From assembly GCA_030453435.1 (NCBI GenBank), contig JAKDKI010000007.1, positions 1-19,976 of the forward strand: a stretch of 19,976 nt of DNA, given 5' to 3'. The notes beneath the pieces were generated by a model. It was not told where the DNA came from and did not search any database. It was given only the letters and a program-made list of their open reading frames with translations. Source of the DNA: Kocuria sp. GTDB lineage: Bacteria; Actinomycetota; Actinomycetes; Actinomycetales; Micrococcaceae. The stretch's first letter is position 1. Each line of letters begins with the position of its first letter. Both the position numbers and the translations under genes were made by a program. Positions 1 to 19,210 of this stretch are shown one piece after another.

Positions 1-1002
1 CTACCCGCCCCCTGTGACACGACACCGGCACCGCTCGCGTGTCAGAGATCTCCTTCTCCAGTGCAGCCCACCCCGTGGCTAGCCGCTCGGAGTTGATGTG
101 CTCCGTGGCTCGACGCGTTGCCGTCGGATTGTCGAGATAGGACGCTCACTGTTGCGCCCAGGACTCGAAGTGTCGATCGAACGCCGCCAGTCGCTGCATC
201 TGTTCGACGTAGGTCCGATCGAAATACGCCTCTAACTGTTCGCTGAGGTCAGATGAAGCGGTCTGCTGGCCGAACGGACAGACACCGTGCGTGTGTTCGA
301 GATGGGCGCGCCCGTGCTGCACCCAGTCGGCATTGCTGAGCTGCTGGATAGAGGGCGTGAGGTGCACATCCCCGCTACCCACGACAGCCACGCCCAAGAG
401 CGAGTGGCCGGGCGCGTCTTCGATCCTGATGTCGCGTCCAAGAGGAAGTTCTTGGATCGGTTGCGCCTCCTCGCTAAGAACCGCTGCTGCCTCGGGCGTG
501 AGCGCCTCAAAGTCCTCGGATGCGGAGCGGTTCGCCACGGCGACCTCGAGCAGTCGGTCGAGAAGCCGGTCCTTGCTGTTGTTGTACCCGTGAACATCTC
601 ACGCAGTTCTGCAGGGACTTAGTTGCGCTTCGCCCGCGCCGTCTCTTTCAGCGAGGTACGACCATCCTCGATTTCACGGTTCTTTGCAGCTAACCAAAAC
701 TCGTGTTGAGCGAGCCTCTCCTAGTAGGAACACCCCGTCGAGGTGGTCTGCAGACGTGAGCGTCGCGTTGATGTAGTCACGGTTATAGACCTTGGTGCCG
801 AGCACGCTGGTCGCTGGATTCCGCTCCAGAGTGATTCCAGTGAACTACGTCGAGTCAGCGAAGGCACGGCTGATGGTCGTGATGCCGGAACCGTTGGGCC
901 CGAAGAAAAGTTCACCGGTTTGAGCGGGCCAATATCTGCGCCAGATGCAGGGTCAAACGCAGGGGCACCGCGTGGCCGAAGGTACTCAAGCATCGTTTTC
1001 AT
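1..1002 (-). pseudogene. Decayed AAA_13-type ATPase (PrrC/RloC-like), runs off window
   Basis: This is the 5' part of a broken gene, readable only by joining frames. The ATG at 1002 overlaps the stop of the Res gene as ATGA, so it was the last translationally coupled gene of the operon seen here. The first frame reads MKTMLEYLRP...LKPVNF. A T-run at 906-909 appears one base short, and the next frame continues FFGPNGSGITT, a Walker A motif with its Lys changed to Ile. A TAG follows at 845-847, then VYNRDYINATL...DGVFLLGE. The frame shifts again near 715 (ERLAQHEFWLAAKNREIEDG), meets TAA at 619-621, continues VPAELREMFTG, and shifts near 590 to YNNSKDRLLDRLLEVAVANR. That frame contains VCPFGQQT near 265-285, which resembles the CPFC half zinc-hook of AAA_13 proteins with the second Cys changed to Gly. 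A TGA lies at 146-148, with coding-like sequence beyond it. PrrC and RloC, the known anticodon nucleases of this family, carry the RNase domain at the C-terminus, which is outside the window. Confidence 0.8.
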
Positions 1003-4000
1003 ACCCCCACGAGCTGCATTAACTCGGTGTAGTCGGTTACCACGTCGTAGGTGACGTCATTACCGTTCTTCGCGTTGAGTGAGGCAAAGAACTTGCGGGC
1101 ACACTCGATCTTGGCGTCCTCGACACCCTTGAGCTGGAGTGTCGACAACGAGCCCTTCGTTTCAGCGACGAAGTAGACATGCTTGACGCTGCCGTCGGTG
1201 AACGCGATGGCCCAGTCCGGGTTGTATTCGCCAAGAGGAGTGGGAATGAAGAACCCTCGCGGGAGCTTCGCGTAGACGGCGATCTCGTGGCTGGTGTCCA
1301 GTTCGGTGACAAACTCGCGCTCAACCTTGGAGTCGGTGACCACGTAGTCATAGACGTGCTTCTTGAGCTTCGACCCGGCCTTCGAAAAATCTTGGGCGGC
1401 CTGGTTTTCGGTGAAGATCGCAGAGTCGAAGCGGTCTTCGAGCGCGTCATAGGCGAGGTGCTCGACGATGACCGTGGCCTTCTGCTCGTTGATGAGCCGG
1501 GCTGCCTCGGTGATGAACTGCTCGGGGTTAAGGCGGAACTTGGCGAACGTTCCTGGCGTGACGCCGCGGAGGATCACAGCGATCGTGCGACGGGTGAGCT
1601 GGGTCTTTTCGGTGATCTCGCCCAGCAGGTCATACTTCACCTGCGAGCCCGCGCTCACGGCCTCGGTGTGTGTCTGCGTATTCTGCACTGCGAAACCGGC
1701 GCCGCTGGTCAGATCGTCAGCCTCCAACTGCTCGCGTTGCTGGCCCGCTTGTACGACGTATTGCAGCGCCGCGACGTTGAGGTGCTTGTCGAGGTGGTCG
1801 ATCGCCTTGCGGATCAGCTCTCCGGAGTCGAACTCGACCTGGTAGACGGCGCGGTGGTTGATCCTGCCCCACAAGGCTTGGAACTCCTTGCGGGCGAAGT
1901 TGGCCTCGTTCAGCGGGATCTTCTTCGGCTTGCGGTCATTGGTGGGCACCGGCAGGTCGAGATAGAGCACGTCGATCACCGGCCACACGAAGTCAATCAC
2001 TGGTAGCAGCACCTCGGAAGTCGGCGCGGCGAGGGTTCCATCTTCTTTTGCCTGCTTGTATGCGTCGGAGATGGTGTCGTCGTCGTTCACGTAGTCGTTC
2101 TTGACCAGGTACTTGTAGAGCGCCTGGGCGACGGCTTCTTCGATGACCGACTCGCCCGAGAGCGTCTGGATGGTCTTGCCGACGAAAAACTTGGCGCTGG
2201 CCTTGCGCGGCCGCGCGGCGAGCGATTCGGAGATTTCGCGTTGGAGACCGGTTACGAAGTCGGTATAGGACTCGTCGGTGACGACGGTCAACTCGTTGAT
2301 GTCGTGCACTGTGACGGGATTGTCCATCCGCTCACCGTGCTGGTCGACGGCCAGCCGCAGGCCGCGTCCGATCTCCTGACGGCGGGAGACGGTGTTGTCA
2401 CTCTTCTTGAGCATGCCCATGACGAACACGTTGGGGTTGTCCCAGCCCTCGCGCAGTGCGGAGTGGGAGAAGATGAACCGGACGGGTTCGGCGAACGACA
2501 GCAGACGTTCCTTGTCTTTGAGGATCAGGTCGTAGGCGTCAGTGTCCGTCGAAAGTCCCTTCTCGTCACCTGTCTTCTTGATTGCCTTTTCGTTGTCGAC
2601 GAGATGTTTGGTCTTCTTGTCGATCGAGAAGTAGCCCTCGTGAACCTGACCCACGCTGTCACGGCGCAGATACGCCTGGTACTCCTCGGCCGCCTGGTCG
2701 ATGGCGAGTTCGCCGAGCACCTCGTTGCGGATCGCGGTGTACTCCTCCTCGAAGATAAGCGCATAATCGCCGAGGGTGTCCTCGCGGCTGTAATCGCGAT
2801 ACTTAGCGACCTCATCGATGAAGAACAGCGAGAGCACCTTGATGCCTTGGCTGAACAGCTCGCGTTCCTTGTCCAGATGCACGCGGACGACCTCGCGAAT
2901 CTGGATGCGGCGCTTGCTCTCCTCGGTGACATCCCGGTCGGCGAGCTGTCCCGCCACGACCACATCGCCGTTGCTCAGCTCAATCACATCGCGGTTGGCA
3001 TCCACCTCGGTGATGAACAGTCCCTTGTATGCCTCGATCCCGTTGGAGACATCGTGGAGGTTGGCGCCCATGTCGAGGCGCTTGACCTGCCGTTTGATAC
3101 CCGAGGCCATCTGCACTTCAATCTCGACCCGCGCCCGAGGCTTGGCACCCTTCGCGATCTCGATGGCGTCCAGGTACAGGTAGGCGGTCGATCCGGCGAG
3201 TCCCCTCACGGTGATACCTCGCACGGCGATCTTCTTCACGAGCTTCTGGTTGTAGGCGTCCAGCGCGTCGAGGCGGTGCACTTTGGTGTGATCGACCTTG
3301 TGCGTGGCGGAGTACCGCAGCAGCATCAGCGCGTTGAAACGAGACAATGCTTCCAGCGACTTGGGCGCTCCGATCTTCTGCGGCTCGTCGATGATTACGA
3401 TCGGCCGGTTGGCGCTGATGACGTCGATTGGACGGCGGGACTGGAAATCATCGAGCTCGTCGTAGATGCGGCGGTTGTCCTTACCGGTGGCGTTGAACGC
3501 CTGGATGTTGATGATCATCACCTGCACCCCGGCATCCGAACTGAACCGCTCCAGCTCGTGCAGCTGGGAGGAGTTGTAGATGAACGAGCGCGGCTTGGTG
3601 CCATAGAGCTGCTGGAAGTGCTCGGCGGTCACGTCGAACGATTTCTTCACGCCCTCGCGGATCGCGACTGAGGGCACCACAATGATGTACTTCGACCAGC
3701 CGTACCTCTTGTGTAACTCCATGATCGTCTTGATATAGACGTAGGTCTTGCCCGTCCCCGTCTCCATCTCCACGTCAAGGTTCGGTGCACCTGGAGCGGC
3801 AGCGCTGGAGGCGAGCTTGGCCGACAGCGGGAGGTTTCGTGACCGCTGTACCGCGTGCACGTTCTCCAGCAATTGCGCGCCCGACAGGACGATCTCCGCG
3901 TTGCGCAGACCGGCCTCCGGGCGCTCCTCGGCCCCGAACAGGGCCGGGTCCGCCACAGGGCGGACCTTGCCGGGGTCGATCCGGTAGGAGATACCGTCGT

Positions 4001-4082
4001 GCTTCGGCTGCCCGGCGAATGTCTCGACGACAGCATCGACGGCATCGGTCTGGTACTGCTGGACCTTGAACTGGAGCTTCAT
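999..4082 (-). CDS. res: Type III restriction enzyme Res subunit (DEAD-like helicase plus PD-(D/E)XK nuclease)
   Basis: 1027 aa, usual length for type III Res. It starts MKLQFKVQQYQTDAV, a typical family N-terminus. The frame is open up to 4202, but that would overlap the upstream gene, and the ATG at 4082 follows GAAAGAAAG. Helicase motifs: METGTGKTY at about 106-114 (Lys112), DEPQ at 232-235, SAT at 258-260, and in the second RecA-like domain EGWDNPN followed by RRQEIGRGLRL. The C-terminal nuclease reads NPDW (Asp956) ... AETKG (Glu974, Lys976), a complete PD-(D/E)XK site. Known family role: ATP-dependent translocation and cleavage in complex with Mod at unmodified sites. Its gene lies 76 bp after the AlbA_2 gene rather than directly after mod, which is unusual. 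All catalytic motifs are intact, so the protein is expected to be active. Confidence 0.93.
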   Translation of the reverse strand: MKLQFKVQQYQTDAVDAVVETFAGQPKHDGISYRIDPGKVRPVADPALFGAEERPEAGLRNAEIVLSGAQLLENVHAVQRSRNLPLSAKLASSAAAPGAPNLDVEMETGTGKTYVYIKTIMELHKRYGWSKYIIVVPSVAIREGVKKSFDVTAEHFQQLYGTKPRSFIYNSSQLHELERFSSDAGVQVMIINIQAFNATGKDNRRIYDELDDFQSRRPIDVISANRPIVIIDEPQKIGAPKSLEALSRFNALMLLRYSATHKVDHTKVHRLDALDAYNQKLVKKIAVRGITVRGLAGSTAYLYLDAIEIAKGAKPRARVEIEVQMASGIKRQVKRLDMGANLHDVSNGIEAYKGLFITEVDANRDVIELSNGDVVVAGQLADRDVTEESKRRIQIREVVRVHLDKERELFSQGIKVLSLFFIDEVAKYRDYSREDTLGDYALIFEEEYTAIRNEVLGELAIDQAAEEYQAYLRRDSVGQVHEGYFSIDKKTKHLVDNEKAIKKTGDEKGLSTDTDAYDLILKDKERLLSFAEPVRFIFSHSALREGWDNPNVFVMGMLKKSDNTVSRRQEIGRGLRLAVDQHGERMDNPVTVHDINELTVVTDESYTDFVTGLQREISESLAARPRKASAKFFVGKTIQTLSGESVIEEAVAQALYKYLVKNDYVNDDDTISDAYKQAKEDGTLAAPTSEVLLPVIDFVWPVIDVLYLDLPVPTNDRKPKKIPLNEANFARKEFQALWGRINHRAVYQVEFDSGELIRKAIDHLDKHLNVAALQYVVQAGQQREQLEADDLTSGAGFAVQNTQTHTEAVSAGSQVKYDLLGEITEKTQLTRRTIAVILRGVTPGTFAKFRLNPEQFITEAARLINEQKATVIVEHLAYDALEDRFDSAIFTENQAAQDFSKAGSKLKKHVYDYVVTDSKVEREFVTELDTSHEIAVYAKLPRGFFIPTPLGEYNPDWAIAFTDGSVKHVYFVAETKGSLSTLQLKGVEDAKIECARKFFASLNAKNGNDVTYDVVTDYTELMQLVGV

Positions 4083-4158
4083 CGAGTGTCTTTCTTTCTG
4101 CAATAGGCGCTGTTCGTCGTCGCTGCTAGAAGGTTGCGGGCGGCGGAGATGCGTGTGT

Positions 4159-5904
4159 TCACGCTGATCCCAGCCCTCTAGCGGTACCGCTGGAATCGTC
4201 ATCCTTCTTGCGCGGAGGCTCGGACCGCCCGCTTCCGTCGCCTACGGAAGAAAGCTCCCATCGTGGTTTCGTGCGGGTACCGCGGTTGATGATGACACCG
4301 CGGCGTCGCAACTTCGTCAGGAGATTCGTGATCTTGGTTGTCTTCTGCTGCTCGGTGAGCGCTTCGCTAAGTGCCGGCCGGAGCAGTGCCTCCACGTCGC
4401 CGCGGTCTGCGTGTCCCTGCGCGCGGAGGAAGTCAGTCAGCAGGGCAGCGTAATGCGCGTCTGCCTGGGGCCGGGTGCGGATGTAGTCGGCCATCGCCCC
4501 GGTCGCCGCTGCGACACGAGGAGTGATCCGGCGGTGAGGCTTGCGGCCCTCGATCAGCCCAACTCTGCGCAGATGACGGGCGGCTTTCTCGCTGATGTCG
4601 AGCCCCTTCTGCACTCGATCCAGCGCAAGCAAATCTTCAAGAGGAAGATCGGTTCGGACCATAAGCAGCTGGGAGTAGGACTCTTCGATCACCCCGCCCG
4701 GAATAGTGAGCTTCACCTCGCCAGCGGTGCTGAGGTCGTAGTCAGGCAACGGGAGGAACCGTCGGACCTGGTCCTGCACCATGCGGTGGATTCCGTAGCC
4801 CATCTGGTCGATGAGGTTCAGCTCTGTCATCGCCTCGACGAGGAAGGGGTTGCGGTACTGCCGTGGGGTGCGCTCGTCCAGGGCGTAGTCGTCGGGCGCG
4901 CCATCGAAGAACTCGCCCACGCTCTCGAACACGATGCGGTCGGCGTGCTCAGTGACGATGATCCGGGAGTGTCGCGTGTAGTCCTGGTGCGCGATGCAGT
5001 TGTAGAGCGCTTCGAGCAGGCTACGTTCGTCGTACTTACTGATCTCTCGATAGATCAGCTCGTCAGGTGGCAGGAGTCGGAGCTGCACGTTGCGGATACG
5101 CTTCGCGAGTGCCGTCGTTTTCAGCAGGAACGGCAACCGGAAGTGCTCGTTTGCCCGCTGCTCGCCAACGAGCTTCCAGGTCATTTGCGCCGGGTGCGGG
5201 GTCAGCAGATGCGTCGAGGTGTCGGCACCGAGCAGAAGGAGCGCGGCTCGGGTGATCCGACCGTCGCGAGTCAACCTCGCCTTGGCCAGGAAGGTCGCGT
5301 CATCCCACGCGTCGATGTCGGCAGCCGGGATGCGAGAGGCGTACCGCTCGGTGAACCCCTGACGCGCGCGTGTGATCGCCGCCGGATCGAGGTGAGCGAG
5401 CGTCGCGTCAGGAACCACGACCGCCGACCAGTCAGCGCTGATGGTCTGCCGCCGAATCTCATCCAACTTGTCGAGCGAGAGCGGCACCAGGCTCTCGCCG
5501 GAGCGAGCTCGGTAGTCACCCTTCCACGAGATCGGGATGCCGCGAGGCGCCGCCGGCACCTCAAGCAGAACCGCGCGCTTGCCCGAGTACATGACCTCGT
5601 AGACCTCGCGGACGGTCAGCCCCTGATCGATGGACTGATGGATGTGGTGCTTCAACGTCTGGCGCTGCTGCACATCAATGAGATGGGTCGTGCCCACAAC
5701 CTGCCGAGCGTTCGAGACGCCGAAGACGAGCCACCCCGACGCGAGTCCGCGTAGGTTCGCCTCGTTGCTCAGCGCCGAGACATACTCACCCGTCTTGTCC
5801 GCAGAGAACTGGCGTGCAGCCTCCTTGAACTCGACAACCTCGTTCTCCCAACCGGCTAGCAGCCGATCGAGGAGTTCGGTGAGTTCGTCGTGGGTCAAGG
5901 TCAT
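4159..5904 (-). CDS. AlbA_2 (Schlafen-like) / GHKL-ATPase-like regulator protein
   Basis: 581 aa. The N-terminus (about 15-120) has the AlbA_2 signature: EVVEFKEA at 22-29, then SALSNEANLRG and SGWLVFGVSNA. The middle holds a HATPase_c_4-like block, YDERSLLEALYNCIAHQDY at about 291-309, in which Glu298 and Asn302 fit the GHKL N-box. The C-terminus (about 430-560) looks like winged-helix DNA-binding segments, including TEQQKTTKITNLLTKLRRRG. Such proteins are often annotated as RecG-related or putative transcriptional regulators; the biochemical role in this setting is not established. The ATG at 5904 is preceded by GAGGA at good spacing and lies 8 bp after the mod stop, so the gene is in the same operon. 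Placement between mod and res is the odd point. Residues 560-581 are low-complexity and charged. Confidence 0.85.
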   Translation of the reverse strand: MTLTHDELTELLDRLLAGWENEVVEFKEAARQFSADKTGEYVSALSNEANLRGLASGWLVFGVSNARQVVGTTHLIDVQQRQTLKHHIHQSIDQGLTVREVYEVMYSGKRAVLLEVPAAPRGIPISWKGDYRARSGESLVPLSLDKLDEIRRQTISADWSAVVVPDATLAHLDPAAITRARQGFTERYASRIPAADIDAWDDATFLAKARLTRDGRITRAALLLLGADTSTHLLTPHPAQMTWKLVGEQRANEHFRLPFLLKTTALAKRIRNVQLRLLPPDELIYREISKYDERSLLEALYNCIAHQDYTRHSRIIVTEHADRIVFESVGEFFDGAPDDYALDERTPRQYRNPFLVEAMTELNLIDQMGYGIHRMVQDQVRRFLPLPDYDLSTAGEVKLTIPGGVIEESYSQLLMVRTDLPLEDLLALDRVQKGLDISEKAARHLRRVGLIEGRKPHRRITPRVAAATGAMADYIRTRPQADAHYAALLTDFLRAQGHADRGDVEALLRPALSEALTEQQKTTKITNLLTKLRRRGVIINRGTRTKPRWELSSVGDGSGRSEPPRKKDDDSSGTARGLGSA

Positions 5905-5912
5905 GTCGTTCC

Positions 5913-7895
5913 TCAGATCGTCCGTACCTCGGTCGCGGGTGACACCTCGCGGAATACCTGCTCGGCGTTGATTCGCGCGGCATCGGTGGCGAAGCCTGAA
6001 TCCAGGAAGACAGCTCGCAGAGGCTGCCGTCTTGCGACCTCACTGATGATGGTCGGATTGATGTCTCCAGAGAAGCAGGCGACGAGGGCTCCCTCAGCCA
6101 CCGACAGAATTTCACGGCCATCAACTTGTTCGGCGACGACGGGTTCGCTCAGGTCCAAGGCCCAGTCGAGTAGCACTTGGAACAGCAGGTCGTACGTGTC
6201 GCGGTCCGGCCGGACGCTGTTGATGGCCCCGGACAGCATGTCTTGCGAGAGGCTGTCCGGGACTGCCAGGGTGTCGATCAAGTTCGAGGTGTCCACTCGC
6301 AGCGCGCGGAATCCGCTATCCGCCAGCAGGTCGCCCGCAAACCTCTCGTGCGAGAGCCGCATTCGCTGCTTGGTGATCTCAGCAACGGTCTCCGGACGCC
6401 CGAGGCACTTGAGGTGACGAATTGCGTTCATAGTGATTTTCTTCGCAGCTCCTTTCGCCGTCTTCAGCGACTCATTCAAGTCCTCGGCAACCTGGATTCC
6501 GATGAAACGGCATGACATCGACTCAGTGCTGTTGAGTTCGAGAACGGCCTGCATCGCCGATCCCGAGCCCGCGAACATGTCGAGCACGATGTCATTGCCA
6601 GACACGCCGACTGCGCGATAGATGTCCCGGAGCAAAAGCTCGTCCTTGGGGTTCGTGAAGACCTTCTCGCCGAATAGCGCCGCTAGCCGCTTCGAGGCCG
6701 CGCGGCCATCGGCGTAGCGGATGCTCGTGAGGCTCTGGTACTCGGTGTTCTTGAGGTAGGTCTTGTTCTTCGGCACACTGGTGTGGTCGTCCCCAAAGTG
6801 GACAAGGCTGTCCGAGATGCGACGAAACATCTCCTCTTTCGGGTAGCGCCAACCGGAAGCCGGCATTTTCACTACTTCGCCGGTCACAGGATGTGTTACG
6901 TCGTAGACGTACTGACTGTCGTTTGGACCAGAGATGTCGGATGCGAAGTAGATTCCGCGCTCGTCCATCCACTCGTAATGCCTACTTCCGGCGACTGGAT
7001 CACTTGCTTGGAAGGTCTTGTACCAGGCCTTCGCTTCCGCATTGATGGCCGCCCAGTCGTTACCGTGCTTCCTGTGAAACTCGTCGAAGGCCGCGTATAT
7101 CTTGTCGAGCCCCTCCTTCTTCTCACCCCAGTCGCCTCCGTTAGCCGACCGGTTCTTCACGAAGAAGACGATGTACTCATGCTGGATTGAGACGTACGCC
7201 TGGTCGTTCTTGCTGCTGTTCTTCAGCACGATCTCTCCGACGTACGACGCGTCGCCGAGAACCTCCTCGCCCAAACGCACGAGGTTGGCGTGTTCGTTCT
7301 CGTCGATCGACACAACAAGCACGCCGTCGTCGGTCAGTAGGTTCCTGGCCAACTTGAGCCGCGGGTATATCATGCTTAGCCAGTCAGAGTGGAAGCGGCC
7401 GTTCGCCTCGGAGTTCGCAACCAGCCGCTCACCGCTCTCCATGCTTTGACCAGAGCGGGCGAGGTACTCGGCGCTCGACTCGGCGAAGTCATCGTCGTAG
7501 ACGAAATCGTTTCCCGTGTTGTAGGGCGGGTCGATGTAGATCAGCTTGACCTTGCTGAGATACGACTCCTGAAGGAGCTTGAGAGCCTCCAGATTATCGC
7601 CCTCAATGAAGAGGTTCCTCGTCGTATCAAAGTCAACCGACTCCTCGCGAACGGGGCGGAGGGTCTTCGCGATCGGAGCGTTCGCCGTGAAGGCGGCAGC
7701 GCGCTTACCAGGCCAGTCGAGCCGGTACCGTTCCTGTGGCCCCTCCACGATGTGGTCGCTGAGTTCTTGGCGCAGCAGGTCGAAGTCGACCGCTCGCACG
7801 AGCTTGCCGCCCGCGTCGGAGCTCTCGGTGACGACGTTGGGGAACAGTTCATTTATCTTGTCGATGTTGGCCTGTGTGAGGTCGGGTGATGTCAT
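5913..7895 (-). CDS. mod: Type III-like site-specific DNA methyltransferase (Mod)
   Basis: 660 aa. An amino-methyltransferase of the beta-type order: catalytic motif IV DPPYNTGN at 122-129 comes before the SAM-binding motif FAGSG at 441-445 (DIVLDMFAGSGSA). DPPY predicts N6-adenine or N4-cytosine methylation. The stretch between them (about 150-430) would hold the target-recognition domain. A long C-terminal tail (about 480-660, RDTYDLLFQVLLDWALDLS...) is typical of type III Mod subunits. The frame is open to a GTG at 7910, but GGAGAG at about 7903-7908 sits in the right place for the ATG at 7895 (MTSPDLTQ), so I use that start. The gene begins 18 bp after the DUF4391 stop. Mod is expected to confer site recognition on Res and protect host DNA. 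The recognition sequence cannot be read from the protein. Confidence 0.93.
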   Translation of the reverse strand: MTSPDLTQANIDKINELFPNVVTESSDAGGKLVRAVDFDLLRQELSDHIVEGPQERYRLDWPGKRAAAFTANAPIAKTLRPVREESVDFDTTRNLFIEGDNLEALKLLQESYLSKVKLIYIDPPYNTGNDFVYDDDFAESSAEYLARSGQSMESGERLVANSEANGRFHSDWLSMIYPRLKLARNLLTDDGVLVVSIDENEHANLVRLGEEVLGDASYVGEIVLKNSSKNDQAYVSIQHEYIVFFVKNRSANGGDWGEKKEGLDKIYAAFDEFHRKHGNDWAAINAEAKAWYKTFQASDPVAGSRHYEWMDERGIYFASDISGPNDSQYVYDVTHPVTGEVVKMPASGWRYPKEEMFRRISDSLVHFGDDHTSVPKNKTYLKNTEYQSLTSIRYADGRAASKRLAALFGEKVFTNPKDELLLRDIYRAVGVSGNDIVLDMFAGSGSAMQAVLELNSTESMSCRFIGIQVAEDLNESLKTAKGAAKKITMNAIRHLKCLGRPETVAEITKQRMRLSHERFAGDLLADSGFRALRVDTSNLIDTLAVPDSLSQDMLSGAINSVRPDRDTYDLLFQVLLDWALDLSEPVVAEQVDGREILSVAEGALVACFSGDINPTIISEVARRQPLRAVFLDSGFATDAARINAEQVFREVSPATEVRTI

Positions 7896-7913
7896 TCGTA
7901 GTCTCTCCACGGG

Positions 7914-8579
7914 TTACCTTTGCCGTTCCAGTTCGTGTTGCTTCGTCTTGAGTGTGCGCCGGAGTTCGACCTTGCGGTTGAATTGTGGCTCGGTACGGAG
8001 CTTGCGCTCTAACGCTGCGACCTCACGTTCGAGCTTGCGCACAGTGGCCAGTCTGTCGGCGACCTCTGACATTTCCTCGCCCGGGCGTGCGGTGATCGGC
8101 GTCAGCGGCTGCAGGAGCGCGGCGTAGAGGGCGGGCAGTGTGATCGCCGTCGGTAGGGCCCGCCGCCACGTGTTGCCTGGATGCCAACCGGTCGAGTAGT
8201 AGGCGCTGGTCTTCGGCGCTCCGGCTCCGAGCTGCTTGTGCGCTGCGACTGTCCGAGTCTCCGGCTGCCCGGCGGAGCGGCGCGTGATCTCGAAGATGAT
8301 AGGGAACGGGATGGCCTTGTCGATGGCGCCCAGAACGGCGTCGCTGACCTCATCGGTCTTGGCATGAATCGTGAAGACCTGAATCTCGGGCACCGCTGGT
8401 GTGCCGGGGAGATTCATGGTGGCCTCGGCGAGCTTGTATGCCCAGGTGATGCGTTGGACCTCATTGATGAACTTCTCGCGCACAGCGGAGCTGACGGTGC
8501 CGTGCTCGTAGACCTTCTCTTTGGGTACTCGTCTGCCGAACCTGGTTGCCTCCGGCCAGCGGTAGAGGATGTCAGTCAT
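7914..8579 (-). CDS. DUF4391 domain-containing protein
   Basis: 221 aa, intact. The N-terminus (MTDILYRWPEATRFGRRVPKEKVYEHG) and the body (about 30-165, including QVFTIHAKTDEV and PFPIIFEITR) match my recollection of DUF4391. That family has no known enzymatic role but is frequently found between helicase and methyltransferase genes of restriction-like operons. Residues 168-221 (EVADRLATVRKLEREVAALERKL...) are a charged heptad-like coiled coil, suggesting oligomerisation or docking on a partner. The ATG at 8579 overlaps the end of the upstream helicase gene by 8 bp, so translation is probably coupled. A scaffold or adaptor role is inference. No catalytic motif was seen. Confidence 0.8.
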   Translation of the reverse strand: MTDILYRWPEATRFGRRVPKEKVYEHGTVSSAVREKFINEVQRITWAYKLAEATMNLPGTPAVPEIQVFTIHAKTDEVSDAVLGAIDKAIPFPIIFEITRRSAGQPETRTVAAHKQLGAGAPKTSAYYSTGWHPGNTWRRALPTAITLPALYAALLQPLTPITARPGEEMSEVADRLATVRKLEREVAALERKLRTEPQFNRKVELRRTLKTKQHELERQR

Positions 8580-11500
8580 CGGCGCCGCCCCCGTTGGGGT
8601 CTACGACAGCGATGAACGCCGTCAACTCGAAGTCGTCGAGACCGGCGATGGTCTGGGTCAAGGCCGTGGTGCTGCCACCGGTGAAGAGAGTGTCGATGTC
8701 GCGCTCCTCGGTGACATCGACCATCGAGCGGATCGCGTCGGTGAGCAGCTCCGAATACTTCCCCATCTGAGCACCCTCGCCGGTCGCGGCGTTGAGCGCA
8801 TTGACGACATCGCTGACCGGCTCCTCGTAGGGTCGGCAGCCGGCGCGCAGCAGGTCGAGGAGGTGCTTGGATTTGGTGTGATTCGCGATGACCTCGCCCT
8901 GATCATCGAGGTAGACGAGATAATGCGGGTGGAGCCGGTTGCCTCGGTTGACGTGCTCATCCGCTGTGAGGTTACGGAGGGCGAAGATAACGCCAGGTCG
9001 TAGCCCCTTGCTGAGGTCGGCGGGGATCACGGCGTGGAGGCCGCGGGGCGCGGTGTCGAGGTCGCCGTGTTCCTTGATGTAGCCAAGCAGGTCCATGCGG
9101 AAGTCGTTGAGCCCGAGGTCGGTGATCGAGACCCCGGTGCGGACATCTTCGAGCTCGATGACCTCATCTTGGAGCTTGCGGAGCTGCTCCTTGCGGAAGG
9201 CGGCGTCTGAGTCCTCGAGGGTGAGGACGTTGTCGTCTGCGGTGCTAGCGAGGTCAGCGATGACCATGCGGTTCTCGACGCGTTCCTTGAGGTTGATGTA
9301 CTCGTCGAGAGAGATGTCGGGCCAGAAGTTCACGAGCTGAATCTGGCTGTTGGTGGAGCCGATGCGGTCGATGCGCCCGAAGCGCTGGATGATGCGCACC
9401 GGGTTCCAGTGGATGTCGTAGTTGATCAGGTAGTCGCAGTCCTGGAGGTTCTGGCCCTCGCTGATCACGTCGGTGCCGATGAGCACATCCAGCTCGCGCG
9501 TCTCGCGCGGCATCGTGAGGTGGCGCTGCTTGGAGCGCGGTGAAAACAGAGACATGACCTGCTGGAAGTCGAAGCCCGTACCGAACGTCGTCTTCGCGCC
9601 GTGGCTACCGCCCGTGATCACCGCAGTGTCGAGCCCCGCCGCAGCGAGGGTGGGCGCCAGCTCTCGGTAGAGGTAGTCGGCGGTGTCGGCGAAGGCGGAG
9701 AACACGAGCACCTTGCGGTTGCCGTCGTTGATCGGGTGCTGCGCCTTGTCCTCGATGAGCTGCTTGAGTTTGCGGAGCTTGAGGTCGTGCTCGGGAGTGA
9801 CCCTGCGCATCTCATCGAGAAGCTCGCGCAGGGTCCCGCGGTCGTTCCACAAGTCACGCTGCCAGGACTCGAGGTCGAGGTCGTCGAGGTCGATCTTGAT
9901 CTTCTCGCCGAAGGAGAGCGCTTCGATGTTCGCGTCGTCTTCGTCATCGACATCGAAGTCGAGCCCCGCGAGCTCGGGGCTCAGGTCGGCGAGGTTGCCC
10001 GCATGGTTGCTGATGCGCCCGAGCATGTGGGTGACGGCGCCTTCGATCTTTCCCAGGGTGAGGCGGAAAGCGTCGACCGAGCTCTCCAGACGCTTGAGCA
10101 GGTTCACGGTCATGAGCTTCTTCAAACCCTGCTCACGTCCTGCCTGCCCGAGATTGGATCGGGCGCTCCCGGCGGTGACGTTGTAGAGGTCTTCGTACTT
10201 GGAACGACGACTCGGGAACACATATGCCAGCGGGGTGTAGACGGCGAGGTTCAACGCCTGAAGCTGCTCGAAGATGTCATTGAAGCCCGGCACATCCGGG
10301 AGGTCAGTGAGTGGCTCACGGATCGAGAGCGGTGGGCGTCGTTCCGGGAAGGCGCCGATCTCGGTGGTGTCATAGAACGCTTGGATGTGCTTGCGGGAGC
10401 GGGCGATGGTGACCGAATCGAGCAACTCGAAGAAGTCGAAGTCGAGCATCTGGAGGATGCGGTCGGTGGTGCGCTGCTCTGGGTCGAGCTTGGACCACTC
10501 GTTGAACACGCGCTGCGCGTCGGAGAACACCTTCTCGACCGTCGTGGACAGGCTCAGGTGCTGGGCGAGGTTCTCCGACTCGCCCTCATAGGCGAGCTGG
10601 AGCTGGTTCTTGAGGTCGTTGAACCGGTTGTTCACCGGCGTGGCTGAGAGCATCAGCACCTTGGTCTTCACGCCCTCGCAAATGACCTGGCGCATGAGGC
10701 GCTGGTAGCGCGACTCCTTCTCCTCGGCATAGTCGGCGTTGCGGAAGTTGTGGGACTCGTCGATCACAACGAGGTCGTAGTTGCCCCAGTTGATCCGATC
10801 CAGCCGCAGGCCGAGCGACTCACCCTTCGTGCGGGAGAGATCGGTATGCGCGAGCACGTCGTAGTTGAACCGGTCGGAGGTGAAGATGTTGGTCGTGAGG
10901 TTGGCGTTGTAGTTCGTCCAGTTCTCGGCGAGCTTCTTCGGACACAGCACCAGCACGGACTTGTTGCGCAACTCGTAATATTTGATGACCGCGAGCGCGG
11001 TGAACGTCTTACCGAGGCCGACAGAATCGGCGAGGATGCACCCGTTGTAGGTCTCCAACTTGTTGATGATGCCGGTGGCCGCGTCGCGCTGGAAGTTGTA
11101 GAGGCTCTGCCAGACCTTCGTCTCCTGGTAACCGGTGCGGTCGTTCGGCAGAACGTCTTCATTGATGTCGCCGAGGAACTCTGCGAACAGGTTGTAGAGG
11201 ATCAGGAAGTAGATGCGTGCCGGGGAGTTCTCGGTGTACACGCTGGCGATGTGGTCGTGGACGGCCTGGGTGACATCGCTGACTTGCTCGGGGTTGTTCC
11301 AAATCTGGTCGAACAGTTGCATGTACTGCTCGGTCATCGGAGCTTCGTCGAGCCGGTTCACGAAGCTCGACACGGCGTTGCCGCGTTCGTAGCCGAGATC
11401 GGCGGTTGTGAACCCCTGGAGTTGCGTGTAGGCAGCCTTGTCATCGATAACAGCGAACTGTTGCATCGGGTTCCCAGTGGCGTTCGAGCGAAAGGTGACC

Positions 11501-11844
11501 TTCCGGCGAACCCAGTCCGCGCACTCCCGGGCGATCGCGCGCTGGGTAAGCTTGTTGCGCAGCCTGATCTCGAAGTCGGACCCAGCGAGGCCCGACTCGG
11601 CCTGCCCTCCGGGAATGAAGAACTCGCGCCGCTCCTTGCGGAGCTTGTCCGTGACCTTCTCGGTCACAAACGACGGCGACGTGAAAATGAACTCCAGTTC
11701 GCTGACCTTCTCCAGTTCCTTGCGGAGTGCTTCGAACGCGAAGATGGAGAACGTCGATGCGGCGATGCGGACCTTGGAGCCCGGCGCGATTTCAGCCTTG
11801 AGATCGTCACCCAGAAGGTCGCTGATGTTGTTTATGATCCTCAC
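8572..11844 (-). CDS. SNF2-family helicase with N-terminal PLD-like region
   Basis: 1090 aa from a GTG at 11844 (VRIINNISDLLGDDLK), 4 bp after the HTH gene's stop. A TTG at 11859 is an alternative, and neither has a clear Shine-Dalgarno, so translation is probably coupled. Residues 1-165 resemble the phospholipase-D-like region found before many defence-associated helicases, but I find no HxKxxxxD motif, so it is probably a structural or binding domain. SNF2 motifs: ADSVGLGKTF with Lys279, DESHNFRN from about 362, LSATPVNNR from about 399, and in the second half VLVFSAFADTADY, GTDVISEGQNLQDCDYLINYD and RIIQRFGRIDRIGS. This is a complete RapA/SNF2-like motor. Family knowledge supports ATP-driven translocation on duplex DNA. 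The last ~250 residues are family-specific. Likely the DNA-scanning motor of the system (inference). Confidence 0.9.
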   Translation of the reverse strand: MRIINNISDLLGDDLKAEIAPGSKVRIAASTFSIFAFEALRKELEKVSELEFIFTSPSFVTEKVTDKLRKERREFFIPGGQAESGLAGSDFEIRLRNKLTQRAIARECADWVRRKVTFRSNATGNPMQQFAVIDDKAAYTQLQGFTTADLGYERGNAVSSFVNRLDEAPMTEQYMQLFDQIWNNPEQVSDVTQAVHDHIASVYTENSPARIYFLILYNLFAEFLGDINEDVLPNDRTGYQETKVWQSLYNFQRDAATGIINKLETYNGCILADSVGLGKTFTALAVIKYYELRNKSVLVLCPKKLAENWTNYNANLTTNIFTSDRFNYDVLAHTDLSRTKGESLGLRLDRINWGNYDLVVIDESHNFRNADYAEEKESRYQRLMRQVICEGVKTKVLMLSATPVNNRFNDLKNQLQLAYEGESENLAQHLSLSTTVEKVFSDAQRVFNEWSKLDPEQRTTDRILQMLDFDFFELLDSVTIARSRKHIQAFYDTTEIGAFPERRPPLSIREPLTDLPDVPGFNDIFEQLQALNLAVYTPLAYVFPSRRSKYEDLYNVTAGSARSNLGQAGREQGLKKLMTVNLLKRLESSVDAFRLTLGKIEGAVTHMLGRISNHAGNLADLSPELAGLDFDVDDEDDANIEALSFGEKIKIDLDDLDLESWQRDLWNDRGTLRELLDEMRRVTPEHDLKLRKLKQLIEDKAQHPINDGNRKVLVFSAFADTADYLYRELAPTLAAAGLDTAVITGGSHGAKTTFGTGFDFQQVMSLFSPRSKQRHLTMPRETRELDVLIGTDVISEGQNLQDCDYLINYDIHWNPVRIIQRFGRIDRIGSTNSQIQLVNFWPDISLDEYINLKERVENRMVIADLASTADDNVLTLEDSDAAFRKEQLRKLQDEVIELEDVRTGVSITDLGLNDFRMDLLGYIKEHGDLDTAPRGLHAVIPADLSKGLRPGVIFALRNLTADEHVNRGNRLHPHYLVYLDDQGEVIANHTKSKHLLDLLRAGCRPYEEPVSDVVNALNAATGEGAQMGKYSELLTDAIRSMVDVTEERDIDTLFTGGSTTALTQTIAGLDDFELTAFIAVVDPNGGGADD

Positions 11845-11848
11845 GTGG

Positions 11849-12049
11849 CTACTTAACAATCTGGTTCAGAGTTGTGAGGGCCACGCCGCCACGCCGTACC
11901 CAGTTGTCGACCTCGCTCGCCTGACACTTCCACAGGCAGCCAATCTCCTGAGCGGGCGTGCCCTTCTCGATGATCCAGGTTTCGACTTTATCCTTGATGG
12001 CACCAAGTTGGGAGTCGATGTCATCAGCTGACAACCATGGCTCAGTCAC
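11849..12049 (-). CDS. Excisionase-like helix-turn-helix protein, first gene of the operon
   Basis: 66 aa. WLSADDIDSQLGAIKDKVETWI and then EIGCLWKCQASEVDNWVRRGG fit the short MerR/excisionase HTH_17 fold: recognition-helix region, a beta-wing with G-x-LWK, and the closing helix SEVDxWVRxGG. The start is GTG at 12049, fixed by a GAGGAGGAGG Shine-Dalgarno 6 nt upstream, the strongest in the operon. The stop lies 4 bp before the helicase GTG. Such small HTH proteins often head methyltransferase/helicase defence operons and may act as autorepressors or as DNA-binding subunits. Both roles are inference. Two Cys residues (GCLWKC) replace residues that are usually Gly-Arg and Phe-type, a small oddity. 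Confidence 0.82.
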   Translation of the reverse strand: MTEPWLSADDIDSQLGAIKDKVETWIIEKGTPAQEIGCLWKCQASEVDNWVRRGGVALTTLNQIVK

Positions 12050-12055
12050 AAAGGT

Positions 12056-12065
12056 CCTCCTCCTC
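12056..12065 (-). promoter_or_regulatory. Strong Shine-Dalgarno of the defence operon
   Basis: Reading the minus strand, GAGGAGGAGG is followed by ACCTTT and the GTG at 12049. The near-perfect anti-SD match at 6-nt spacing makes GTG the clear start of the HTH gene and implies efficient initiation at the head of the operon. Confidence 0.7.
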
Positions 12066-12684
12066 GGCCACCGCAGGGCCTAACCTTTTCATGATATCGG
12101 TGCAATTCCGGGTTCAGGGGGGTTTCTCTGGGTGTCGTACGTCGATCTATAGGAGGCCAGTCGGCAACGCATTCCTTGAGCCACGGGATGGCCAGCGTCC
12201 CGGCGAATGAAGGGGACCTGAGCTTGACATCTTGTACGGATCGCCGCGCACCATTCAAGGATCAACGAGTCGAGGACGGGCACGCGCGATAAATGACCGC
12301 CTCTCGAAACACTGCGCTATTGCGAACGCGATGGCGCTGCCAATCAAGTATTCGAATAGCACGGTGCGTGCAGCGCCCCATCGGGCTTCAATGTTGGCCG
12401 CAGCTTCGACATCCGTTGCTATGGTCTCTGGGAGGGCCGAGTGCCCGTAGCCTACGGTTTGGGGTGAACCAGGTCTTAGGCGTCGCCTGCGACGCCGAGT
12501 CCGCTCAGGAGGCATGGCTGACACAGCACGAAGGGACCATTGCACGTATCAACATTTGCCTTTAGGCAACGTAAAGGCCAGGTACCGCTAAACACGGGAA
12601 TCCTGACCTTTACTTCTTTATCCCCCGCAGGAGGAAATCTACAACCGAGTTAACTCCAGCTACTGCGTTTGTCTACCCAACGAC
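12066..12684. other. Intergenic stretch between defence operon and IS
   Basis: About 620 bp with no convincing gene. It must contain the promoter of the leftward operon, but I found no well-spaced sigma-70-like pair; TATAGA near 12145-12150 and TTGCAC near 12100 are only weak candidates. An open frame on the minus strand (12545-12255, GTG start, ending FIARARPRLVDP) has mixed third positions and no recognised domain, and is at best a remnant. The right part contains small inverted repeats and an isolated AGGAGG at about 12630-12635 with no start codon behind it, which could be a 5' leader cut off by the IS insertion. Confidence 0.5.
12571..12613. repeat. Inverted repeat (12-bp arms, 19-bp loop)
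   Basis: GTAAAGGCCAGG at 12571-12582 pairs with CCTGACCTTTAC at 12602-12613, 11 of 12 positions. Directly upstream a second small palindrome, TTGCC-TTTA-GGCAA, lies at 12556-12569. No T-run follows on the plus strand apart from the short TTCTTTAT. It may be a terminator, an operator, or the residue of an older mobile-element end. Confidence 0.45.
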
Positions 12685-12715
12685 GAGACTCACTTAAAGT
12701 CCCCGCGTTACAGGG

Positions 12716-12745
12716 GCCGTGCCTCAGCTAAGAATCCCCGCGAAA
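12716..12745 (+). repeat. Left inner terminal inverted repeat of the IS
   Basis: It begins GCCGTGCCTCAGCTAAG and ends TCCCCGCGAAA. It pairs with 14076-14105, with about four mismatches in 30. A weaker direct copy of the motif lies about 35 bp to the left (12685-12710). Confidence 0.85.
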
Positions 12746-12781
12746 TCTTCCGTGGTGTCCGTGGCCCGGTGACGATGGGGT

Positions 12782-14074
12782 ATGGCTGATAGGGACGTGT
12801 CGATGAGGACCCGCATCGAAGTGACCAAGAAGTATGCCAAGGCCTATGCGGCGGCTTCGAAGAAGCAGAAGGGCGCGATTCTAGACATGGCCGTGTCGAT
12901 CACCGGCTGGGACCGGGACCACGCCCGCCAGCAGCTGCGCCGCCGCGCTAATCAGCCGCCCGGGCGGGCGACCGCGACGGTCGCGGTGCTGGACCGGCGC
13001 AAGACCCAACCCCGCAAGTACTCCTACGGCGCCCTGATGGTGCTGCGGCGGATCTGGGCCAGCTCCGGAGGGCTGTGTGGGAAATACCTCGCCGCCTCGA
13101 TGTCAGAGTGGATCGAGGCGATGGAACGCCACGGTTCCCTGGTGGATGGCGAAGACCGATATTGCCCGGTGGTGCGGGCCGAGTTGCTGACGATGAGTCC
13201 GGCCACGATCGACCGGTACCTGGCCCCGACCCGGGCCAAGGACCCGCTGCACGGCAAGTCCGCGACGAAGCCGGGGACCTTGCTGCGCAACTCGATCACG
13301 ATCCGCAAGGCCGGGGATGAGGTCGAGGACGAGCCCGGGTTCTTCGAGGTCGACACCGTCGCCCATTGCGGGCCCACCTTGAAGGGAGAGTTCATCCGGT
13401 CGGTGAACCTCACCGATGTGCACAACGGATGGGTGTTCACCTGCGCGATCCGCAACAACGCCCGCGTGCACATCCTCGCCGCCCTGCAGTCCGGTGTCGA
13501 TACGATCCCGTACCTGCTCAGCGGCCTAGACTTCGACAACGGATCCGAGTTCATCAACCACGACGTGGTCAACTGGGCCGCCGACAAAGACATCTACTTC
13601 ACCCGGTCACGGCCCTACCAGAAGAACGACCAGGCCACCATCGAGTCCAAGAACGGACACCTGGTGCGCCGCTACGGGTTCTATTACCGCTACGACACCG
13701 GCGCCGAACTTCAACTGCTGAACCGGCTTTGGCCCCTGGTCAACGACCGGTTGAACTACCTGTCTCCCACGAAGGAACCCACCGGCTGGAGCACCGACGC
13801 GGCCGGCCGGCGCAAACGTCTCTACGCCGCCCCACAGACCCCATACCGCCGGCTGCTGGACTCCGGGACACTCAGACGCGCCCAGCAAGCCGAACTCAGG
13901 ACGCGCCATGACAGTCTGGATCCGGTGGCCATCGCCACTGAGATCGACCGGATCCAGCAACAACTAATCCGCCTAGCCGCCGAGAAAACACACCACCTCG
14001 AACGGGAAGTCCAAGCCGCCTCCGCCCTGCCCCACCCCGCCGGCATCGAGCTCCACCACCGGCAGGCCAGCTAG
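12782..14074 (+). CDS. DDE (rve-type) transposase
   Basis: 430 aa, full length. The N-terminus (MRTRIEVTKKYAKAYAAASKKQKGAILD) is a helical DNA-binding region. The integrase-like core carries Asp191 (FEVDTVAHCG), Asp252 (LDFDNGSEF) and Glu288 (ATIESKNGHL), giving a D-61-D-35-E triad as in rve-superfamily transposases. The C-terminus is basic with QQQLIRLAAEK-type helices. I would place it in an ISNCY/IS1202-like or IS481-related group, but the family is not certain from memory. The ATG at 12782 has a poor leader. An in-frame ATG at 12803 is preceded by AGGGA and may be the true start. It is the only clearly plus-strand full-length gene in the window, and its catalytic residues are intact, so the element may still be mobile. 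Confidence 0.88.
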   Translation: MADRDVSMRTRIEVTKKYAKAYAAASKKQKGAILDMAVSITGWDRDHARQQLRRRANQPPGRATATVAVLDRRKTQPRKYSYGALMVLRRIWASSGGLCGKYLAASMSEWIEAMERHGSLVDGEDRYCPVVRAELLTMSPATIDRYLAPTRAKDPLHGKSATKPGTLLRNSITIRKAGDEVEDEPGFFEVDTVAHCGPTLKGEFIRSVNLTDVHNGWVFTCAIRNNARVHILAALQSGVDTIPYLLSGLDFDNGSEFINHDVVNWAADKDIYFTRSRPYQKNDQATIESKNGHLVRRYGFYYRYDTGAELQLLNRLWPLVNDRLNYLSPTKEPTGWSTDAAGRRKRLYAAPQTPYRRLLDSGTLRRAQQAELRTRHDSLDPVAIATEIDRIQQQLIRLAAEKTHHLEREVQAASALPHPAGIELHHRQAS

Positions 14075-14075
14075 A

Positions 14076-14105
14076 TTTCCCGGGGACTTTTATCTGAGGC
14101 ACGGC
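14076..14105 (-). repeat. Right inner terminal inverted repeat of the IS
   Basis: It begins TTTCCCGGGGAC and ends CTGAGGCACGGC, starting directly after the transposase stop. It is repeated imperfectly at 14111-14138, where TTCCCGGGGA and TGAGGCA are both conserved at 35-bp spacing. Confidence 0.85.
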
Positions 14106-14242
14106 ACACCGTTCCCGGGGAATTGACTATGAGGCATCACGGTGGATCTGCCGGGTTGGTACCAAGACCGCGTTCGCCGTCACGATCAAATCAGCGGCAA
14201 TCGCAATCATCGTTACGCTCACCGCGGAGGACGCCTCTTACC

Positions 14243-14281
14243 GACCCCAGCATGTGGTGGTCGGTAGCCACCTAAGGGGTC
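14243..14281. repeat. Two-part hairpin between IS and lipoprotein gene
   Basis: The outer arms GACCCC (14243-14248) and GGGGTC (14276-14281) enclose an inner stem GGTGG/CCACC with a 7-nt loop. It lies just past the 3' end of the leftward lipoprotein gene but has no T-run on either strand. It could be a weak terminator or a structured RNA element. The rest of 14139-14327 shows no gene. Confidence 0.4.
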
Positions 14282-14327
14282 AGGCTCGGTATACGTTGGG
14301 TTGCGGCGGGGGGTTCCTATTTCTTGC

Positions 14328-15026
14328 TTACCCCCACTGCATGGAAGCGAGGCGTTCACGATCGCCGTCCGTCTCGAACTGGGCCACGATTGGCTTGATG
14401 TCCACGGGTACAAGCTCCTGAGCAGGGTCTGTGATGCGGTGGACTTGAATCCACACCACGCCGTCGGGCCGAGATGTGACTGGCTGTGCCACAGTCAGGG
14501 TGAGCTTGTAGCTCTCATGCGTGTCGTCTATTGGCGACATCTGAACCTCGCCCTGTTCGTCGAGATGAAAGTCGCTGTGACCGTCGATGGTCTGGTTGAT
14601 GACCGACGCGTTCCACCATTCAAAGCCCTCGGTCGTGTAAAGACCATCGAATCGAGGGCGCCGCGTATCAAAGTCCTCCACCAACAGGGCTTCGCTGAAT
14701 TGTGGACCGTTCTCCCGGGCAATCTCCATGGCCGTCTCGGCGATGACCTGTGGGGTGGCGTTCTCCGGTAGGCGCTCCTCAAGCTCTTCTTCTCCATATT
14801 GGAACCACTCATTCAGCGCGTCGACGAAGTCAAAGGCGAGTTCCTGGTCCGACTGACCGGCTTCAAGCTGAGGTAGGGCAACCGCTGGGGGTGTCGCTGT
14901 GGCACTGGGCTGAGTCGCTGGCGCTGTCTCATCACCACCTCCGGAGCCTGTGCTTCCACCGCATGCTGTCAGCAGGAGTGAGACCGCACAGGAACTAGTG
15001 ACGATCTTCAGGGCCGTGGTTCGCAT
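14328..15026 (-). CDS. Secreted lipoprotein of unknown function
   Basis: 232 aa. A standard lipoprotein signal: MRTTALKIV, a hydrophobic core SSCAVSLLL, and the lipobox LTAC|G with Cys22, followed by a Gly/Ser/Thr/Pro/Ala-rich linker (about 23-52). The mature domain (about 55-232) is acidic, with DFVDALNEWFQYGEEELEERLPE and a beta-rich C-terminal half. I do not recognise a family; the helical start loosely resembles actinobacterial lipoproteins such as DUF6318, which is only a guess. The ATG at 15026 is fixed by TCTGGAGG just upstream; the longer open frame to 15200 would overlap pycTM. It is 77 bp downstream of pycTM and has its own promoter-like sequence, so it may be independent. Expected location: outer face of the cytoplasmic membrane. 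Confidence 0.8.
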   Translation of the reverse strand: MRTTALKIVTSSCAVSLLLTACGGSTGSGGGDETAPATQPSATATPPAVALPQLEAGQSDQELAFDFVDALNEWFQYGEEELEERLPENATPQVIAETAMEIARENGPQFSEALLVEDFDTRRPRFDGLYTTEGFEWWNASVINQTIDGHSDFHLDEQGEVQMSPIDDTHESYKLTLTVAQPVTSRPDGVVWIQVHRITDPAQELVPVDIKPIVAQFETDGDRERLASMQWG

Positions 15027-15062
15027 GCAGCCTCCAGAGGTAGCGTCTCTCCTGTTAAATTG

Positions 15063-15091
15063 AGCATATGGCGAGGAACGCCTGGTGGGAA
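15063..15091 (-). promoter_or_regulatory. Candidate promoter of the lipoprotein gene
   Basis: On the minus strand, TTCCCA (15086-15091) and TATGCT (15063-15068) are separated by 17 bp. Each matches the sigma-70-like consensus at four of six positions. It lies in the 77-bp gap after pycTM and would give a leader of about 30 nt before the ATG at 15026. Confidence 0.35.
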
Positions 15092-15103
15092 TAGCTGTGG
15101 AAT

Positions 15104-16299: not shown

Positions 16300-16420
16300 G
16301 GCTCACTTTCTTGTGGGCTGTTTGCTTATGTGTCGAATCTAGCGATGCCCTCGGACAAGCTGACCCTGCAGGACCATCCTGCGTGCGCCGTGGCGGAAGC
16401 CCAGAAGGCGTGCTTGACAT
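16283..16420 (-). CDS. Possible 45-aa leader ORF overlapping the pycC start
   Basis: On the minus strand, AGGAGG (16426-16431) followed by CCATC precedes an ATG at 16420. The frame encodes 45 residues (MSSTPSGLPPRR...HVPHH) and stops at 16283-16285, 17 bp inside pycC in another frame. The Shine-Dalgarno is far better than that of pycC. The peptide is polar, basic and shows no domain. It may be a leader that couples or meters translation of the cyclase, or chance. Confidence 0.35.
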   Translation of the reverse strand: MSSTPSGLPPRRTQDGPAGSACPRASLDSTHKQTAHKKVSHVPHH

Positions 16421-19182: not shown

Positions 19183-19210
19183 CGAGCCGGTGAAGCCGGG
19201 CCTTCCCCGC

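Follow-up and report, generated by a model that had tools for sequence, protein, structure and literature searches.

A 19,976-nucleotide stretch of Kocuria sp. DNA (contig JAKDKI010000007.1, positions 1 to 19,976; hereafter the window) carries mod and res, the two genes of a type III restriction-modification (R-M) system, in one operon with a gene for a second motor of the SNF2 family. Which of the neighbouring genes belong with the R-M pair, and what may a second motor do there? Six open reading frames (ORFs), all intact and on the minus strand, run from 12049 to 999 in the order HTH, SNF2, DUF4391, Mod, Schlafen and Res, as a preliminary description of this DNA had stated. That description treated the six as one unit. 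The comparison of related loci gave a smaller one: the unit is four genes, encoding the SNF2 motor, DUF4391, Mod and Res, and the HTH and Schlafen genes lie outside the core.

A conserved unit of four genes

An alignment of the SNF2 protein was searched against one genome per species (GTDB), and each locus was then scored with profiles derived from the operon. Among the best 80 of more than 585 SNF2 matches, 68 loci had at least 7.5 kb of downstream sequence, and 66 of them carried SNF2, DUF4391, Mod and Res in this order and on the same strand; being drawn from the best 80 matches, the set leans to close relatives. The two exceptions were L066, in which Mod and Res were both absent, and L099, in which a truncated mod was followed by genes resembling, by eye, IS21-type transposition genes. 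According to the record titles, the loci span Actinomycetota, Pseudomonadota, Bacillota, Acidobacteria, Planctomycetota, Verrucomicrobia, Spirochaetes, Bacteroidota and others (the phylum of a genus was taken from general knowledge wherever the title gave none). Since the full set of 110 loci includes near-duplicate viral contigs (e.g., L004/L005, L009/L046 and L014/L015) and six plasmid loci chosen via DUF4391, our counts rest on the 68 GTDB loci. Scores far above the cut-offs, together with a gene order kept across phyla, place the operon beyond chance. The type III pair and a second motor were thus borne out as a conserved unit. The co-occurrence of all six families was not, because the Schlafen gene was present in 14 of the 66 operons and an HTH gene was detected upstream in 22 of 79 GTDB loci, a lower bound since the HTH profile was built from 15 short sequences.

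The association was also seen from the side of Res. In 398 Pseudomonadota genomes, PF19778 gave 42 strong Res places (>70 bits), and DUF4391 lay within 8.5 kb on the same contig and strand at 18 of them (coordinates matched by hand), or at 17 of 41 when the centre genome, chosen for carrying the operon, was excluded. The other 24 places had no DUF4391 match on the same contig, some of these contigs being short. Twenty-three of the 24 were fetched, many on short contigs; ten of them could be read for 5.5 kb or more on the 5' side of mod, and of these, eight had no SNF2 gene and two had a DrmD-like helicase. In a FastTree phylogeny of 90 Res sequences, one clade of 66 (support 0.963) was made up mostly of linked copies (62), the others being 3 from cut contigs and a single one lacking the SNF2-DUF4391 pair, and a second clade mixed linked and unlinked copies.

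The core itself resembled a classical type III system. Mod, the predicted DNA methyltransferase and specificity subunit (5913..7910, minus strand), scored 634.1 bits with the PADLOC type III methyltransferase model, and its residues 54-481 matched EcoP15I Mod (4zcf_A, 262.5 bits). Res, the predicted motor-nuclease (999..4082, minus strand), scored 1086.1 bits with the PADLOC type III restriction enzyme model and 114.8 bits with PF19778, and its best stretch, residues 59-684, matched EcoP15I Res (4zcf_C, 223.1 bits). The res ORF is open to 4202, and the most likely start is M41 of the ORF, at position 4082, where the family match begins. Mod showed DPPY and FxGxG-like motifs flanking the recognition region, and Res showed SF2 helicase motifs and a C-terminal PD-(D/E)XK nuclease; DPPYNTG and FAGSGS in the former, and Walker A, the DEPQ box and the PD..ETK motif in the latter, were intact (read by eye, with motif names from general knowledge). 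Because both proteins matched the EcoP15I subunits, the core is, as judged from its sequence, a functional-looking type III R-M system.

Variation in Mod was concentrated in one region. Across 107 linked Mods, residues 1-220, 441-480 and 521-665 were well conserved and those at approximately 221-440 poorly, which marks a hypervariable target-recognition region at about residues 220-440 (6591..7253, minus strand). In the same way, two E. coli operons (L053 and L054) were 97.5% and 97.7% identical on the flanks of a single unaligned mod stretch, codons ~143-407. Such variation centred on the recognition region is typical of R-M and in line with a specificity subunit. The window mod was a mosaic when compared with the tandem mods of L061 and L067, the only pairs compared in detail: codons 1 to ~100 were mod1-like and the remainder mod2-like, with an approximate crossover zone at codons 100-124 (7539..7613, minus strand). 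The alignment pattern indicates that the gene arose when two mods recombined in their common 5' part, so that its specificity set is new or reduced. Two mods were found in 4 of the 66 GTDB operons (L058, L061, L067 and L073), and two mods with a single res were seen in L006 and L041 as well as in these four. It is possible that operons of this kind make a Mod heterodimer or have dual specificity.

The SNF2 motor and its partner DUF4391

The SNF2-family ATPase is encoded at 8572..11844 on the minus strand. Its ORF is open to 11859, and the most likely start is the GTG at 11844, which is shared with the starts of many homologues. Walker A, DESH and motif VI were intact (read as for Mod and Res). 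The N-terminal PLD region (approximately residues 6-190; 11290..11844, minus strand) had lost both the H and the K of the HKD motif. Hence, the PLD-like N-terminus noticed in the preliminary description is present, but as a degenerate domain, and the statement there that all catalytic motifs were intact holds for the SNF2 motor, Mod and Res and fails for the PLD domain.

The same loss was general in the operon. When 135 SNF2 proteins were compared, both HKD residues were kept in none of the 96 from loci with DUF4391, Mod and Res (a set in which the window, duplicated viral loci and plasmid loci are counted), although one of them, L136, kept the H and lost the K. HKD was kept at the aligned columns in four SNF2 proteins (L034, L035, L038 and L042), in whose loci DUF4391, Mod and Res were all undetected, three of the four having more than 7.5 kb downstream. 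The contrast of 0/96 linked with 3/3 unlinked proteins gave p = 6e-6 in a Fisher test uncorrected for kinship. Two remoter relatives, L050 and L051, kept HxK and SNFT by eye and lacked the three operon genes; they were misaligned at the HKD columns and are therefore outside the test. In total, none of six HKD-intact relatives had DUF4391, Mod or Res. Judged from these residues, the PLD nuclease domain of the operon-linked SNF2 is dead.

The HKD-intact relatives also bear on DUF4391. In L034, L035 and L042, the SNF2 gene precedes genes for an Eco57I-type methylase (1200-1358 aa) and an SMC-like ATPase, and the L034 and L042 SNF2 proteins belong to the window's SNF2 family, with 38-40% identity over most of the length. 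The DUF4391 Pfam model matched all three methylases between residues 105 and 228, each time below the cut-off (22.8, 23.0 and 19.5 bits against 29.9). When DUF4391 was aligned by local hhalign with the N-termini of four such methylases (L038 added), the score was 43.1 with a probability of 78% over 86 columns; the same comparison gave 10.7 to 21.0 for other operon families, and the best of 40 column-shuffled controls reached 24.1. These matches are suggestive of one domain, fused to the methylase in the HKD-intact relatives and free between motor and mod in the operon.

In the window, DUF4391 (7914..8579, minus strand; PF14335, 169.2 bits) was modelled confidently (pLDDT 94.8) as an alpha/beta body with a C-terminal helical hairpin, and a Foldseek search of the model against the PDB gave no match at E <= 0.001. 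PF14335 was sought without reference to SNF2 and was found in 7 of 296, 23 of 398 and 25 of 299 genomes of three phyla, each count including a centre genome chosen for carrying DUF4391. This 993-genome sample held 61 DUF4391 places, among them single-gene pieces (L174/L176 and L199/L205) and the three centre genomes; at several of the 61, our own DUF4391 profile missed the gene found by Pfam. An SNF2 gene of the operon's family lay within the 1.5-kb flank, on either side and either strand, at all 56 testable places, i.e., those with at least 300 bases upstream, and Mod was near DUF4391 in 51 of the 59 places with at least 1 kb downstream. Since every testable DUF4391 place had an SNF2 gene alongside, DUF4391 is a dedicated partner of this SNF2. 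In the literature searched, DUF4391 was mentioned only in an unrelated table.

Optional genes, mobility and neighbourhood

The operon opens with a small HTH gene (11849..12049, minus strand) whose 66-aa product is excisionase/MAD1-like, with sub-cut-off NCBIfam matches to excise (19.6 bits) and to the MAD1 HTH model of the methylation-associated defence system MADS (22.9 bits, cut-off 80). No other MAD model was reported in the NCBIfam scan of 10 window proteins, for a library whose MAD coverage is not established. The protein is a probable regulator. With the likely starts, the intergenic gaps from HTH to Res are 4, -8, 3, 8 and 76 bases.

The slot between mod and res holds the Schlafen gene (4159..5904, minus strand; SLFN_AlbA_2, 54.1 bits; HATPase_c_4, 43.5 bits). 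Its family was the commonest cargo (a cluster of 18) and by best match occupied the mod-res slot in all 16 carriers among 93 loci, the L110 copy being a remnant. One viral contig, present twice in the set (L002 and L143), had a 434-aa relative 3' of res, and L043 had an additional AlbA_2 protein between DUF4391 and mod. Among the 93 loci, 20 had a space longer than 600 bases between DUF4391 and mod and 42 had one between mod and res, counts that include duplicates and second mods. The scan covered twenty cargo representatives, of which three came from 3' of res. The families included RhuM, Bro-N, Fic, TIR, SIR2, SieB, PLD, subtilase, UvrD and other ATPases, with GmrSD and HerA downstream of res; three of the 20 had no family match. 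In L128 (14014-17032), a SIR2 protein and a relative of the HerA-type ATPase of L090 stand between DUF4391 and mod as a defence-like cargo pair. According to the accessible parts of two reports, PrrC, RhuM and Fic occur in R-M operons, PrrC being an effector triggered upon restriction inhibition (PMC3710099, PMC12707154). The inserts found here are likewise optional and effector-like, and RhuM and Fic are among them; the difference is that these slots belong to a type III operon and that the window cargo is a Schlafen-type gene.

The operon was also found on mobile elements. DUF4391 was present on 38 of 72,556 plasmid records. Of 5426 E. coli genomes, 10 carried a match to the L054 operon, 9 of them along 80% or more of its length, and 10 of its 11 E. 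coli places were plasmids. On pEC21Z137-115K (E. coli; L054 and L234), the four-gene operon lies near repA, and the presence of genes for capsid, portal, terminase and tail makes this plasmid a phage-plasmid. In Erysipelothrix phage phi1605, SNF2 is followed by Mod and Res, with one gene between SNF2 and Mod where DUF4391 would be expected. That gene (L235, 6457-7170) bears the annotation methyl-accepting chemotaxis protein, perhaps owing to a helical tail, and its identity as DUF4391 is by position only.

Elsewhere in the window, a Pycsar pair was found at 15104-16299 on the minus strand, in which PycC (PADLOC, 251.4 bits) overlaps the membrane effector PycTM (Pfam, 54.4 bits, cut-off 27.2); with this pair also present, the window looks like a defence cluster. 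An integrase-core transposase (12782-14074, plus strand; rve, 35.5 bits, cut-off 32.6) is transcribed away from the operon, and an MFS transporter (70.4 bits) lies at 16843-18357 on the minus strand. The region 3' of res (1-998) has short frames only, and the one scanned, 721-1002, had no Pfam match; the match of two close relatives to the window ends at about 1008, and the region looks decayed.

Known systems and the role of the second motor

In the accessible part of Murray et al. 2021 (PMC8259958), EcoP15I and EcoP1I consist of Mod and Res. The window Mod and Res match the EcoP15I subunits, with the motifs present and a recognition region that varies between alleles; the difference is that SNF2 and DUF4391 stand ahead of mod in a fixed order. 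The same report describes an additional helicase-like ATPase gene 5' of mod in Eco86II, BspHIV and more than 500 genomes. In the parts of the E. coli NCTC86 chromosome read, there was one SNF2-methylase-helicase set. We take it as Eco86II because the mod length (Mod of 1040 aa) fits the published plasmid size, given a vector of presumably about 2.8 kb. Its helicase is DrmD-like, has 963 aa, lacks the PLD part and is 98% identical to L238, a PADLOC DrmD match; against the window SNF2 profile it scored 114 bits, compared with 1237-1337 bits for the HKD-intact relatives. No DUF4391 was detected at the NCTC86 locus, and its Res was unmatched by the window Res profile. Thus, the Eco86II and BspHIV type shares an SF2 helicase gene 5' of mod with the window, but the window SNF2 is of another family and is separated from mod by DUF4391. 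From the differing helicase family, the undetected DUF4391 and the unmatched Res, the window system is placed as a separate variant, and two SNF2 families have joined type III genes. Parallel operons of HTH, DrmD-like SNF2, Abi-family cargo, Mod and Res were seen in L239 (E. coli) and L237 (Salmonella), and the L239 HTH, annotated mads1, matched the window HTH profile at 46.5 bits. The refuting condition named in the preliminary description, a gene order already catalogued under a name, applies by half: an extra helicase 5' of mod is published (PMC8259958, in the part accessible), whereas the NCTC86 helicase is of another family and DUF4391 is absent there. The SNF2-DUF4391 pair beside type III genes was not named in the literature searched, with most subscription papers and REBASE outside reach.

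DISARM has an SNF2-type helicase near a methylase, and in this it is like the window operon. The difference is that DrmB (DUF1998) had no match among 7 window proteins with Pfam and PADLOC (the PADLOC result for SNF2 being the best 25 of 47 matches) or among 10 with NCBIfam, and that the NCBIfam DrmD model gave the window SNF2 159.9 bits against a cut-off of 610. BREX PglZ and BrxC/PglY likewise had no match among the window proteins scanned with the three libraries, so the earlier view that the system is neither DISARM nor BREX was upheld. PADLOC C3a139 (HKD+Snf2) matched the window SNF2 at 388.7 bits, yet the HKD residues of an intact nuclease are absent. Of a related kind are the L034, L035 and L042 loci, with the same SNF2 family and a DUF4391-like stretch in the methylase, which differ in their intact HKD and in that Mod, Res and a separate DUF4391 were undetected. 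By their description, similar sets appear as CxC ABC-ATPase systems in the accessible part of PMC10853773.

We propose that the operon encodes a type III R-M system with a built-in second motor, a reading that we hold with about even confidence, in which DUF4391 would couple SNF2 to Mod, Res would cut, and the Schlafen protein would be a back-up. Mod would mark the host DNA and find an asymmetric site. DUF4391 may be the coupling piece between motor and methylase subunit, because a similar stretch lies within the methylase in the sister systems. At unmodified sites, SNF2-DUF4391 may act on the complex of Mod, Res and DNA, either by pumping the DNA or by displacing proteins bound to it, whereby Res would meet another complex and cut. 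The division into sensing and degradation that the preliminary description suggested for the two motors is possible. Since the cargo resembles known R-M-linked effectors, the Schlafen protein may act upon restriction failure, like PrrC beside a type I system. The built-in motor is favoured by the kept order and strand (66/68), the constant company of DUF4391 and SNF2 (56/56), the linked share of Res (18/42) and the lost HKD (0/96), as well as by the DUF4391-like stretch in the methylases, the variation in the Mod recognition region and the intact Res motifs.

Several observations weigh against it. With global-mode hhalign, the probability for DUF4391 and the methylases was only 2.1%, our own DUF4391 profile gave the four methylases 0.9 to 11.3 bits, and the link between them is below the Pfam cut-off and as short as 86 columns. 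In L218, Mod and Res of the linked clade live without the SNF2-DUF4391 pair, which is therefore dispensable. As far as the accessible part of the report goes, the extra helicase of Eco86II, the closest analogue with experimental data, was unneeded for methylation and was undetected by mass spectrometry in the partly purified, DNA-cutting enzyme (PMC8259958); this precedent weakens the idea of a stable complex, although that helicase is of another family. No experiment on an SNF2 or DUF4391 of this family was found in the literature searched.

The pair may instead serve the safety of the host, as a remodeller by which Mod-Res complexes on host DNA are stripped off or reset (restriction alleviation). 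A precedent is Mot1, an SNF2-family protein that takes a bound protein off DNA, and the dead SNF2 nuclease and the cutting by an Eco86II preparation with its extra helicase undetected are in line with such a role, as is the fact that the pair nearly always precedes Mod and Res, whereas Mod-Res also occurs without the pair. That 24 of 42 strong Res places had no DUF4391 on the contig, some contigs being short, argues that such a device is not generally needed, and we consider this role unlikely. SNF2-DUF4391 may also be a second effector that uses Mod methylation as a self mark and blocks phage replication without Res, as in BREX or DISARM. The three HKD-intact relatives with a methylase and an SMC-like ATPase had no Res in the loci read, from which it follows that the motor lineage can pair with a methylase alone; but the window lineage has lost the nuclease and is nearly always followed by Res, which leaves a second effector quite unlikely.

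Defence genes cluster, and L066 and L218 indicate that SNF2-DUF4391 and Mod-Res are separable, as expected of two unrelated systems that co-travel in defence islands. Against such co-travelling stand the order and strand fixed across many phyla, the SNF2 gene beside DUF4391 at 56/56 places and the Res clade linked in 62 of 66 copies, with 3 more on cut contigs; it is therefore improbable. A single six-gene defence machine with HTH and Schlafen essential would fit the overlapping or closely spaced genes of the window and the close relatives L061 and L067, which have the same six in the same order plus an extra mod. With Schlafen in 14/66 operons, HTH detected in 22/79 loci and other genes occupying the same slots, it is highly improbable.

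If the built-in motor is extended to a history, a large type III branch may be a two-motor enzyme, in which an ancestral helicase-nuclease ceded cutting to Res, lost its own nuclease and remained a DNA pump tied to the methylase via DUF4391. We regard this as tentative and rather doubtful. If it is true, the enzyme could restrict DNA without the two inverted sites required by classical type III enzymes, and its operon would offer places for back-up effectors that can be exchanged (Schlafen, TIR, SIR2, Fic and RhuM).

A type III R-M core with an extra helicase 5' of mod was already known, and the SNF2-DUF4391 combination is, by the comparisons above, a separate variant present in many bacteria. 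That two SNF2 families, the window's and the one in Eco86II-type systems, both stand beside type III genes points to a common requirement for a motor. Usual descriptions of type III restriction involve two proteins, and 18 of 42 strong Pseudomonadota Res genes here lie in a four-gene operon. If SNF2-DUF4391 is a real subunit, DUF4391 would gain a function, and the rules of site finding and cutting would have to be revised for a large fraction of type III enzymes. If the pair serves for safety or back-up, it would help to account for the tolerance of some cells to such an enzyme.

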